Positions 43,073-47,413 of a DNA stretch of 64,000 nucleotides are shown piece after piece. A program made the translations under genes and the position numbers. The notes beneath the pieces were generated by a model. The model saw only the letters and a program-made list of their open reading frames with translations, was not told where the DNA came from and ran no database searches. Origin of the DNA: Candidatus Sulfotelmatobacter sp. (GTDB lineage: Bacteria > Vulcanimicrobiota > Vulcanimicrobiia > Vulcanimicrobiales > Vulcanimicrobiaceae); contig DATJRY010000017.1 of the NCBI GenBank assembly GCA_035504415.1, positions 124,001 to 188,000 on the forward strand. The letters run 5' to 3'. Numbering within the stretch: position 1 is the first letter of the stretch; each line of letters begins with the position of its first letter.

Positions 43073-44971
43073 CTAACGGCGCTTCGAGGCCGTCTTCTTG
43101 ACCGTTTTCTTCGCGGGCGCGCCCCTGCGGACGGACGCGCTCCGCGCCGGAGCCGACTTCGCGCTGGCCTTCTTTCCGGAGGCCGGGCGCGCCGGCGCCT
43201 TCTTGGCGGCGGTCTTCTTGGCGACCGCCTTTTTTGCGGCCGGCTTGGGAGCCGCACGCTTGGGTGCCGGCTTCGCGGCCGGTTTGGCCGGCCGTGAGCC
43301 GGCGGGCTTGCTGCCCGCCTTCTTGGCCGCCGGCTTGGGCGCCGCGCGCTTGGGGGCCGGCTTGGCGGACTTTTTCGCGCTCGGCTTGGCGACCGGCTTC
43401 GCCGGAGCCGCCTTGACGGACGTCTTCTTGGCCGGCGCCGCCTTGGCGGCGATGGGCTTGGCCGCGGGCTTGGCGGGCGCGGGCTTCGCGGGCGCGGGCT
43501 TCGCGGGCGCCGCTTTGGCGGGCATCGGTTTGGGCGCGGGGGCCTTGGCGGGCGCCTGCGGCTTGCGCGCCGGGGCCGCCGGCGAGGGACTCACCGGCGC
43601 CGGACTCGGGGCTGCCTGCTCGGCGGCCGGCGGAGCGGGGGCGGTGCTGCCGTTCGCGTGCGGGGGTGCGGCGGGGCGCGCCTCGGCGACCGGTTCGACC
43701 GCGGGGGCGACGGCTTCGGGCGCCGGCCCCGGCGCGGCGGCAACGGCCGGTTCGGCGGGGCGGGCGGGGCGCTTGGGTCGCCGTGGCGCGGGCCGGACCG
43801 GTTCTTCGGTCGACGCGGTGCCGTTGGCGGCGGCGGGCGCGGCCTCGGCGGGGACAGCGGGTTCGGGTGCGGCCTGCTCGGCACGCACGGGGGCGGGCGC
43901 GCGTTCGACCGGCGCCTTGGCGCGCTTGGGCGGTCCCGCCTCGACCGGCGGTGGCGGCGGCGGCTCGGGGACCGGCGCGGGCTCGGGTTCGGGCTCGCGG
44001 ACGACGCGCAGCGCGACGCGCCGCAGCAGACCACCGATCGGGAAGACCAGCTCGTTGATCTCCAGCTCGTCGAGCACGTCGAGGACGATCTCGAAGGCGC
44101 CGCCCTGGTCGCGCGGCGAGTGGGCGTCCGAACCGATCGCGATGCCGACGCCGCGGTCGCGCGCTTTGCGCAACAGCCGCTTGTTGGCCTCGAGGTAGCG
44201 CGCCTTGTCCTCGTCGGAGTGCTCGCGGTACAGGAAGCGCGTGTTGAACTCGACCGCCATTCCGCGTGCGCCGGCGGCGGCCAGCATGCGGTCCTCGTAC
44301 TCTTCGAGCTTCGCCTGCTCGGGCCAATGGCCGAACACCGCCGGCACGTAGAAGTGGCCGACGATGTGGCCGGGCAGCCGTTCGATCGCGTCGATCAGCG
44401 CGGCGACGTACAGCTCCCAGGTCTGGTCGGTGCCGACGACGTCGAAGAACTCCTGGAACTCCGGGTTGTCGAACGGCCAGCTCCAGTTCTCGCCGTGCAC
44501 CGGGTGCGTGATCGGCAAGAAGTGGACCGAGCGAATCATCGCGTCGGGGCGCATCGCTTCGACGATGTTCTGCGCGTCGGGGCGCGAGCGCGGGTCGTTG
44601 TCGACCTCGGCGCCGATCGAGAAGCGCATGCCGCGGCGCAAGCCCTCGCTGACGACCGCAGCGTGACCGACGTCGACGCCGGCCGTCTCGGCCGCGCCGT
44701 AGAGATCGCCGGCCTGCGCCAGCTTGAGCGCGCGCCGCACGAGATTGACCGACGCCGGATCTTCGAACGTCAGGTAGTTCATGTGGTCCGCGACCATCAG
44801 GAAGCGCGGATACCCGCGCCGGCACGCGTGATAGAACCACAGGAACAGCATCCGCGCGGTCAGCGGGAGCGGGCGTTCCTCGGCGTACGGCTTGTGTTCG
44901 CCTTTGCAGTGACCGTGGACGTCGGGAATCGCGTACAGGCGCGGGTCGTCGCGCTCGGTGTTATCGTTCAA
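43073..44971 (-). CDS. PHP-family metal-dependent hydrolase fused to a histone-H1-like Lys/Ala/Pro tail
   Basis: Residues 1 to about 324 form a PHP (polymerase and histidinol phosphatase) domain: PDVHGHC (Asp17, His19, His21), MVADH (Asp62, His63), the RSVHFLPITHPVHGENW ligands, VEFNTRF and AIGSDAHSPRDQG. Residues about 325-632 are low-complexity. They run from a Pro/Glu-rich part through Ala/Pro-rich sequence to a strongly basic end with repeated PKPAAKK and APAKPA units, like bacterial histone-H1/HU-tail proteins. The fusion would bring a phosphoesterase to DNA, RNA or another polyanion. The start is TTG 44971, and the first 11 bp overlap the pcp end. No shift of frame is visible between the two parts. 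Confidence 0.82.
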   Translation of the reverse strand: MNDNTERDDPRLYAIPDVHGHCKGEHKPYAEERPLPLTARMLFLWFYHACRRGYPRFLMVADHMNYLTFEDPASVNLVRRALKLAQAGDLYGAAETAGVDVGHAAVVSEGLRRGMRFSIGAEVDNDPRSRPDAQNIVEAMRPDAMIRSVHFLPITHPVHGENWSWPFDNPEFQEFFDVVGTDQTWELYVAALIDAIERLPGHIVGHFYVPAVFGHWPEQAKLEEYEDRMLAAAGARGMAVEFNTRFLYREHSDEDKARYLEANKRLLRKARDRGVGIAIGSDAHSPRDQGGAFEIVLDVLDELEINELVFPIGGLLRRVALRVVREPEPEPAPVPEPPPPPPVEAGPPKRAKAPVERAPAPVRAEQAAPEPAVPAEAAPAAANGTASTEEPVRPAPRRPKRPARPAEPAVAAAPGPAPEAVAPAVEPVAEARPAAPPHANGSTAPAPPAAEQAAPSPAPVSPSPAAPARKPQAPAKAPAPKPMPAKAAPAKPAPAKPAPAKPAAKPIAAKAAPAKKTSVKAAPAKPVAKPSAKKSAKPAPKRAAPKPAAKKAGSKPAGSRPAKPAAKPAPKRAAPKPAAKKAVAKKTAAKKAPARPASGKKASAKSAPARSASVRRGAPAKKTVKKTASKRR

Positions 44972-45662
44972 CTTCTCGGAGTCCGCGGGGAATCCACATC
45001 TTGTCGCCGGCTTTCTTGGCCGGCTGCGCGGGCCGCGCGTCGAGCCAGCTGAGCGTCGTTTCGATCGCCGACTCGAGCGCCTTGCGCATCAGATCGAGCG
45101 TCATCGAGGGCGTCCGCTCCGCACCCTGCTCGATCGCTTGCGCCGGCAGCGCGGGGACGTGGATGAAGCCGGTCGCCACCGGCGGCGAAGCGTTCGCGGT
45201 CAGCGCGAGCGCTTCGTAGAGCATCTGGTTGCACAAGAACGTGCCCGCCGAGTTCGAGACGTAGCCGGGGACGCCGACGGCGTGCCAGGCGGTGACGATC
45301 TCCGTCAGCGGCAGGGTGGCCAGCCGGGCGTCGGGCCCGCCGCGCTGGATGGGGTCGTTCTTGCGCATCGTCCCGACGGCGTCGGGGATCTCGAAGTCCA
45401 GCACGTTGAGGGCGGCCCGCTCGACGGCAATCCCGGCGCGGCCGGGCGCGTAGCCGCAGGCCAGCACCAAAGCCGGTTGCGTCTCGGCCAGCGCGGCTTC
45501 CAGCCGGTCGCGCAGGGTGCGCGTCTCGGAGGGAAACACTCGCGTGGCCAGCGTGTACCCGGCGAGGGTACGGCCTTCGAAGCTGCGGACGAGCAGCTCG
45601 CTGGGGTTGACCGTGTGGGGGCCGAACGGTTCGAAGCCGGTCAGTAAAACGTGCCGGGACAC
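44961..45662 (-). CDS. pcp: Pyroglutamyl-peptidase I (C15)
   Basis: This cytoplasmic cysteine peptidase removes N-terminal pyroglutamate. The 233-residue protein starts HVLLTGFEPFG, has the catalytic Glu segment VERAALNVLDF, the nucleophile in VSNSAGTFLCNQMLYEAL and the catalytic His in TGFIHVPALPAQ. The start is GTG 45662 with a weak ribosome site. Its last bases overlap the TTG start of the PHP gene. With the peptide-binding lipoprotein downstream it suggests use of peptides, though the operon also holds pyrE. Confidence 0.93.
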   Translation of the reverse strand: MSRHVLLTGFEPFGPHTVNPSELLVRSFEGRTLAGYTLATRVFPSETRTLRDRLEAALAETQPALVLACGYAPGRAGIAVERAALNVLDFEIPDAVGTMRKNDPIQRGGPDARLATLPLTEIVTAWHAVGVPGYVSNSAGTFLCNQMLYEALALTANASPPVATGFIHVPALPAQAIEQGAERTPSMTLDLMRKALESAIETTLSWLDARPAQPAKKAGDKMWIPRGLREVER

Positions 45663-45927: not shown

Positions 45928-46662
45928 TCAGCGGCGGACGGGGTGATACCCTTCCAGCTCGAGGATTCGCGCTTTTACCTCGACGCCGTACGCGTACTGA
46001 TGCAACGCGCCGCTGGCGTCGACGACGCGGTGGCAGGGGTAGAGCAGCGGCACCGGGTTGCGCGCCATCGCGCGTCCGACCGCCCGCGCCGCCGCCGGTT
46101 GTCCGATCGCCTCGGCGACCCAGCCGTAGGAGCGCACCTCGCCGGGCGGAATGGTCGCCGCCGCGCGCAGGGCCGACTGCTCGAACGCGGTCAGCTCGCT
46201 GATATCGACCTTGGCGAGATCGGGGCGGTGGGTGCGGAAGAAGACGTCGACCGTGTCGCGCACCCACTGCGGTGCTTGCGAGGGGACGACCGCGCGGCCC
46301 AGGCGACGCTGCAGCCGGGTCAGCACCGCTTCCTCGCCCTCGCCGCGATCCATCGCGATCGCCGTGATGCCGGAGTGCCGGAACGCCACGAACAGCGTGC
46401 CGATCGGCGATTCGACCGTCGAGACGGAGTCCGGCGCGACGATCTTCACCGTCTGCTTGATGTGGTCGAGGATCTTAGGGACCATGCTGCCGGGCGGTTC
46501 GACCGGCGGCAAACAGGTCAGACAGTACGCGATGCCTTCGTTCTCGCGGTAGATCTCTTGGCAGACGGCGCAGCCGCGTAGGTGGGCCAGCACGTGCTCG
46601 CGGCGCGGCTCGACCCCCTCGCGCATCTCGTCCCAGAGCCGTTCGACGTCGGCACAGCGCAT
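45928..46662 (-). CDS. Zinc-finger anti-sigma domain fused to O6-alkylguanine-DNA alkyltransferase
   Basis: Residues 1 to about 55 carry a zinc-binding anti-sigma (ZAS) motif: Cys3, then His27-x3-Cys31-x2-Cys34 (AHLRGCAVC), plus YCLTC at 46-50. Residues about 83-244 are a complete alkyltransferase (AGT/Ogt) domain: VRSYGWVAEAIG, ARAVGRAMARNPVPL, the acceptor Cys210 in YPCHRVVDASG, and VKARILELEG. Catalytic residues look intact, so repair of O6-alkylguanine is expected. The ATG at 46662 is preceded by GAGGAAGAGGAG with 8-bp spacing; the sigma-factor stop lies within that spacer. Gene order and overlap mark it as the cognate anti-sigma of the upstream ECF factor. The idea that alkylation of Cys210 releases sigma is inference. 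Confidence 0.9.
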   Translation of the reverse strand: MRCADVERLWDEMREGVEPRREHVLAHLRGCAVCQEIYRENEGIAYCLTCLPPVEPPGSMVPKILDHIKQTVKIVAPDSVSTVESPIGTLFVAFRHSGITAIAMDRGEGEEAVLTRLQRRLGRAVVPSQAPQWVRDTVDVFFRTHRPDLAKVDISELTAFEQSALRAAATIPPGEVRSYGWVAEAIGQPAAARAVGRAMARNPVPLLYPCHRVVDASGALHQYAYGVEVKARILELEGYHPVRR

Positions 46663-46667
46663 GGGGT

Positions 46668-47318
46668 TCACTCCTCTTCCTCGGTGACGGGACGATCGTT
46701 CGGAACGATGCGTCCGACTTGGGGTCCGAGGATCCGGCGAAGAATTCGCACGGCGCGGTGAACGTGTGATTTCACCGTGCCGATGGGCTGGTTGAGGATC
46801 TCGGCGATCTCGGGATGACTGCGTCCTTCGATGAAGCGCAGCGTCGCCGCCGCGCGCAGATGCATCGGAAGCTGCAGCAGCGCCTGCTCGACCAACACCA
46901 TGTCGGCCGCGCGGTCGACGATCTGCTCGGGCTGATCGGGACCCTCTTGGGTCTCGTTGAGCAGCGCGTCGGGGTCGGCCAGCGCGTCGAGCGCGACGTT
47001 GGTCGGGCGCTTCGAACGCAGCCGGTTGCGGGTGACGTTCAAGGTGATCGTGTAGAGCCACGGCTGCAAGCGCAGCTCGGCCCGTTGCTGCGGGTCCATC
47101 TTCGCCAGCGCCCGATAGGCGCGCACGAAGGCGTCCTGCACGATCTCCTCGGCGTCCTCACGGTTGCCGGTCATGCGCAAGGCGAAGCCGTACAGCCGAC
47201 GTTGATAGTCGTCGACGATCGACTCGAATGATTCGGGGCCGGGAACCGGGCGGTTCACGGTCGCCGGTGCGGTCACGCGGTAGCGGTCTCCGAAGATCGG
47301 TGCTGCGAGCGCACTCAT
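46668..47318 (-). CDS. ECF-type (sigma-70 family) RNA polymerase sigma factor
   Basis: The 216-residue protein has sigma region 2 (SFESIVDDYQRRLYGFALRMTGNREDAEEIVQDAFVRAYRAL, including the DAEEIVQDAF core element) and region 4 (LPMHLRAAATLRFIEGRSHPEIAEILNQPIGTVKSHVHRAVRIL). The linker is long and Asp/Gln-rich. This places it among RpoE/SigW-like ECF factors controlled by ZAS anti-sigmas. The next gene starts 5 bp after its stop and encodes such an anti-sigma fused to an alkyltransferase. I did not find a clear GGAAC-type autoregulatory promoter in the 95 bp upstream. The N-terminal 25 residues may be an extension; the start is uncertain. Confidence 0.93.
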   Translation of the reverse strand: MSALAAPIFGDRYRVTAPATVNRPVPGPESFESIVDDYQRRLYGFALRMTGNREDAEEIVQDAFVRAYRALAKMDPQQRAELRLQPWLYTITLNVTRNRLRSKRPTNVALDALADPDALLNETQEGPDQPEQIVDRAADMVLVEQALLQLPMHLRAAATLRFIEGRSHPEIAEILNQPIGTVKSHVHRAVRILRRILGPQVGRIVPNDRPVTEEEE

Positions 47319-47413
47319 CAGGGTCCAAGACCGGAGCCTGGGAGTGCCGGTTGCGGCTGTTCCTTACCCGCGACGCCACGCCCTCGGGAACCAAGGGCCT
47401 GGCAACGATTTCC

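Follow-up and report, generated by a model that had tools for sequence, protein, structure and literature searches.

The window, a 64,000-nt stretch of one contig from a Candidatus Sulfotelmatobacter sp. genome of the family Vulcanimicrobiaceae, carries a two-gene operon on its minus strand. An ECF sigma factor gene comes first, followed by a gene in which a zinc anti-sigma domain is fused to a DNA alkyltransferase. The features are as follows:

47326..47355, minus strand: ECF-type operon promoter, CGCAACC-N15-CGGTCTTG
46668..47318, minus strand: ECF sigma factor gene, 216 aa, with Sigma70_r2 and Sigma70_r4_2
45928 (stop) to 46662 (ATG), minus strand: fusion gene, ZAS anti-sigma domain plus O6-alkylguanine-DNA alkyltransferase, 244 aa (span includes the stop codon)
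46447..46662, minus strand: ZAS (zinc anti-sigma) domain, residues 1-72, with Cys3 and His27-x3-Cys31-x2-Cys34, invariant in 90/90
45946..46431, minus strand: alkyltransferase domain, residues 78-239, PF01035, with the codon of acceptor Cys210 at 46033-46035

The operon is followed on the minus strand by a pyroglutamyl peptidase gene (44961-45662). This family is the one most often seen next to the ZAS-bearing form, with 18 of 75 scanned genes, and has no apparent alkylation link. A 632-aa open reading frame, also on the minus strand (43073-44971), has a long Ala/Pro/Lys-rich, histone H1-like tail as its C-terminal half.

The product of the first gene has the architecture of ECF sigma factors, with sigma2 and sigma4 but no sigma3 domain in about 200 aa (Pfam, Sigma70_r2 3.6e-17, Sigma70_r4_2 5.9e-14). 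Its nearest relative among solved chains is SigW (5wuq_A, E 8.6e-25). In every locus where the contig reaches far enough (88/88), the ECF gene lies directly upstream of the fusion gene on the same strand, and in 71 loci, among the 90 orthologues read, the fusion start codon overlaps the ECF stop by 14 nt.

The N-terminus of the fusion protein shows the pattern of class I ZAS domains: a cysteine and an Hx3Cx2C motif in a small helical domain, encoded beside the cognate ECF. Pfam gives no zf-HC2 hit for the window protein; among 20 N-termini of orthologues, however, 14 do have one, the best at 9.2e-7. A profile of these 20 N-termini matches RsiW (5wuq, E 2.4e-5), including the helix past the zinc motif, with RskA as second match (3hug, E 0.024). 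RsiW is the partner of SigW, to which the ECF is closest among solved chains. A single-sequence fold of the domain was poor (pLDDT 48.9), and in the AF2 model helices are placed at residues 3-14, 21-30, 32-40, 42-49 and 60-71, with pLDDT there of about 65-79. For the full fusion protein, the AF2 model has a mean pLDDT of 87.6, from an alignment that drew on sister-form sequences. Motif, profile matches and gene order together support the N-terminus as a ZAS-type anti-sigma domain beside its ECF, and this end of the protein most likely holds the sigma factor in check.

The C-terminal part is matched by PF01035 over residues 160-238 (2.5e-29), and no further Pfam domain is called. A fold search with the modelled domain finds alkyltransferases, with E. 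coli Ada-C closest by TM-score (1sfe, TM-score (target) 0.85, E 5e-12). The PCHR acceptor motif, the catalytic Asn, His and Glu and the Arg finger are all present. Asn202, Cys210, His211 and Glu237 are found in 90/90 orthologues and Arg193 in 89/90, while Tyr179 and Lys230 are invariant or nearly so. By its residues, the alkyltransferase is thus supported as catalytically complete. The host genome carries a separate canonical Ada (L002) and Ogt (L001) besides the fusion. A further alkyltransferase, L004 (G000:C11:207630-207878), groups with the solo alkyltransferases of the phylum's other families.

The fusion is conserved as a unit in the order to which the window belongs. Of 149 genomes of the phylum that were searched, 103 belong to the order (99 to the window's family and 4 to a second one), and in at least 92 of these the alignment spans residues 1-240 in full. 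The 14 genomes from the next family of the class lack the fusion and yield the alkyltransferase part only. IMG/VR contigs, phages and plasmids gave no full-length relative. The module appears to be present on the closed chromosome of a cultured strain of the window's genus, Vulcanimicrobium alpinum WC8-2. Cys3, His27, Cys31, Cys34 and acceptor Cys210 are invariant in all 90 aligned orthologues, which come from many genera, and His67 is invariant or nearly so. The two domains lie close together, with 20-24 residues from His67 to Gly88 in 89/90 orthologues. The original prediction, an ECF gene followed 5 nt past its stop by one gene with a zinc anti-sigma motif at its N-terminus and a full O6-alkylguanine-DNA alkyltransferase with PCHRV and acceptor Cys210 behind it, is therefore borne out at the window coordinates. 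The fusion is a real single gene with its ZAS cysteines conserved in homologues, and the residue numbers given for Cys3, His27, Cys31, Cys34 and Cys210, as well as the NPVP and PCHRV segments, are correct.

The operon promoter has its -35 element, GCAACC, at 47354-47349 and its -10 element, GGTCTT, at 47332-47327, 8 nt before the ECF ATG. Such a promoter, which the original prediction did not mention, has the form G[AC]AAC[CT], spacer and a -10 beginning with GT and was recognised in 77 of the 88 regions upstream of the ECF gene, a count that leaves out one further listed region with a misfitting -10. The presence of an ECF-type promoter ahead of the operon suggests that it is probably autoregulated. 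In nearly all of the 77 promoter-bearing regions the ECF ATG stands 36-39 nt after the start of the -35, so close behind the -10 that the transcript probably has little or no leader.

Strict promoter patterns, run on 23 and 19 ZAS-bearing genomes, for the most part hit the operon; sites elsewhere are isolated and few, and none is common to several of these genomes in promoter position. A looser pattern gives no excess over the reversed control in several genomes of the window's genus (10 vs 12 in the host genome, G000), and the other three alkyltransferase genes of the host have no convincing promoter site upstream. No alkylation-repair genes adjoin the operon in ZAS-bearing genomes. With neither a repair neighbour nor another convincing promoter copy, the regulon in this lineage may be the operon alone.

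A second form of the module was found in a scan of genome contigs, with 80 loci in Actinomycetota, Chloroflexota, Acidobacteriota, Dormibacterota, a Nostoc and WPS-2. A tblastn search of plasmid records also gave an ECF followed by an alkyltransferase in Nonomuraea and Rubrobacter. In this sister form the ECF gene is upstream in 79 of 82 loci, mostly with a 4-nt overlap, and in the protein the alkyltransferase is preceded by a short helical stretch at the N-terminus and usually followed by an Ada_Zn_binding domain. None of 79 sister proteins has Hx3Cx2C before the alkyltransferase; the N-terminus of the sister form does match ZAS helices 3-4, but no more than suggestively (P 8e-4, probability 25%). 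In the alkyltransferase tree, the ZAS form and the Ada-zinc form are sister groups (96/85), apart from Ogt and Ada. In the ECF tree, the window ECF falls with other alkyltransferase-linked ECFs and both forms make up one clade (93/88), although outgroups were limited and one sister-form ECF (L187) lies outside. Some genomes of the window's order have both forms (L258-L262).

The surroundings of the sister form point to repair. alkB is downstream in five sister loci. The pattern GCAACS-N14-GGTGTTC, derived from the sister operons themselves, has 68 sites in 40 sister genomes against 2 for the reversed pattern, and the genes just 3' of it include SDR (12), the ECF itself (10) and EamA transporters (5). 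It also precedes two independent ogt-like genes (L279, L296) and one Oxygenase-NA (PF09859) DNA-damage-repair gene. The SDR and EamA targets, seen in actinobacterial sister genomes (L270, L273, L274, L275, L286, L290 and others), suggest a detoxification or export arm of the response. The sister form probably does the same job as the ZAS form, with an Ada zinc domain and a wider repair regulon in addition. A promoter shared with alkylation-repair genes, which the original prediction had suggested looking for, is found in the sister form, ahead of ogt and the oxygenase; in the window's lineage the only target found is the operon. The proposed link to alkylation is likewise supported for the sister module, which lies beside repair genes and has its promoter before ogt and oxygenase genes, but it is indirect for the window, in whose own lineage no repair gene adjoins the operon.

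We consider it somewhat probable that the operon is an autoregulated ECF sigma/anti-sigma switch with a suicide DNA-repair enzyme as its sensor. At rest, the ZAS domain would lodge between sigma2 and sigma4 and keep the sigma factor bound. Transfer of an alkyl group from DNA to Cys210 would inactivate the alkyltransferase and destabilise it, as happens to other alkyltransferases: once these are alkylated, the contact between their two domains is disturbed, and they lose stability and are broken down (PMC4605297). By analogy, unfolding or degradation of the alkylated fusion would take the ZAS domain along and free the sigma factor; that is, we infer both that the fusion binds sigma and that alkylation releases it. 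Free sigma would transcribe its own operon and so replace the consumed repair protein, and fresh, unalkylated protein would rebind sigma and turn the response off. The switch would then be a one-for-one lesion counter. The broader reading, that every lesion repaired costs one anti-sigma molecule and sets one sigma free in an Ada-independent, lesion-counting adaptive response, and that the ZAS form is the anti-sigma branch of a cross-phylum family of sigma-linked alkyltransferases, seems to us evenly balanced. The weakest point of the mechanism is that an alkylation regulon is missing in the window's own lineage. The ZAS-bearing genomes, with no repair neighbours and no other shared promoter target, count against it, and the output could be the operon only. 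So does the sister form, which seems to work with no recognisable zinc anti-sigma motif (0/79), and so does the poor single-sequence model of the ZAS domain.

That same restriction to the operon, the only promoter target found in the lineage, together with the conserved autoregulation, would also be expected if the protein were a sensor of occupancy or dose. In that case DNA binding or repair-driven dilution would free sigma, with no conformational signal from Cys210 to the ZAS domain, and the operon would hold the level of repair protein constant. This is unlikely but deserves consideration; it leaves the tight spacing of the two domains (20-24 residues, 89/90) unexplained, which is weak evidence against it.

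It is also unlikely, to a marginally greater degree, that the sensor is the zinc-thiolate ZAS domain, responding to disulfide stress or to electrophiles that attack it directly, as in RsrA and ChrR, with the alkyltransferase as a tethered repair effector only. The fusion is soluble, with no membrane part, and the zinc motif is enriched in soluble class I anti-sigma domains, which are frequently tied to redox sensing (PMC7406223). A second cysteine pair, Cys47 and Cys50, is present in 73/90 orthologues and would fit such a role; however, this pair has been lost in several clades and acceptor Cys210 never. Moreover, the sister form has no zinc motif and still keeps the alkyltransferase and the ECF. 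Thus, what stays with the ECF throughout is the alkyltransferase.

Repurposing of the alkyltransferase domain as a sensor for another alkyl donor or ligand, with loss of its role as a DNA-repair enzyme, is improbable. The active-site loop is unusual for Ogt, with His221 and Tyr225 at the places of Gly156 and Gly160 in the human alkyltransferase. Bulky residues at the Gly160 place confer resistance to O6-benzylguanine, and with Tyr225 the fusion may respond poorly to that compound. However, the catalytic and DNA-contact residues are all kept, E. coli Ada is likewise bulky at that loop position and is an active enzyme, and the Ada-like L002 reads GYRWG there. The joining of two separate genes by a sequencing or assembly error can be rejected as practically negligible, as the full-length fusion occurs in at least 92 genomes of several genera, the closed V. 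alpinum chromosome included.

If the switch with the alkyltransferase as sensor is correct, its input is a defined reaction at one cysteine, so the sensing step is directly testable, and a cultured strain carries the module. It would also suggest an input for an ECF type that is listed with unknown mechanism. That type is ECF122, described with a 6-O-methylguanine-DNA methyltransferase neighbour, without an anti-sigma factor and with mechanism unknown (PMC8999054). Its representative is WP_057211282.1 from Cellulomonas sp. Root930. As in the window, the ECF gene of this group has the methyltransferase as a conserved neighbour. However, ECF122 is free of anti-sigma factors by its listing, whereas the methyltransferase in the window itself bears a ZAS domain. 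A second, less related coupling of ECF and alkyltransferase was seen in L114 (1230-3696), L353 (1471-4429) and L354 (1884-4079), from Arthrobacter, Tsukamurella and Rhodococcus plasmids. These operons have an ECF, one or two methyltransferases and a repair partner, namely a 2OG oxygenase, AlkB or an Ada zinc protein. This Micrococcales/Mycobacteriales type is possibly the true ECF122. Both the alkyltransferase and the ECF of Arthrobacter L114, the one of the three that was tested, lie outside the window's clades. Given these differing lineages, the window's ECF may fall outside ECF122 altogether.

The original prediction knew of no described system of this design. For the fusion this stands: no description of a ZAS-alkyltransferase protein was found in the open-access journal literature searched, and in a 2023 review of this enzyme family (PMC10779285) EndoV and histone-like fusions are named but the word "sigma" is nowhere used. 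The methyltransferase neighbour of ECF122, in contrast, was already published.

Among the modules discussed here, the sister modules (L112, L113, L115-L194, L258-L262) are like that of the window in alkyltransferase, ECF, gene coupling and autoregulatory promoter, but their proteins begin with only a short helical stretch lacking Hx3Cx2C, where the window fusion has its ZAS domain, and end in an Ada_Zn_binding domain. The pairs SigW/RsiW, RsrA, ChrR and RskA share with the window an ECF beside an Hx3Cx2C anti-sigma domain. RsiW is membrane-anchored and is proteolysed, whereas in the window a soluble DNA-repair enzyme holds the place of the sensor. Ada of Escherichia coli is a suicide alkyltransferase, as the fusion is predicted to be, and the fusion could likewise convert alkylation into transcription of its own gene. 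Unlike Ada, the fusion has neither the methylphosphotriester zinc domain nor the AraC-type helix-turn-helix for DNA binding, with PF01035 as its only Pfam domain, and its output would pass through a sigma factor. If so, it would be a second design, beside Ada, by which a consumed repair enzyme is turned into a transcription signal.
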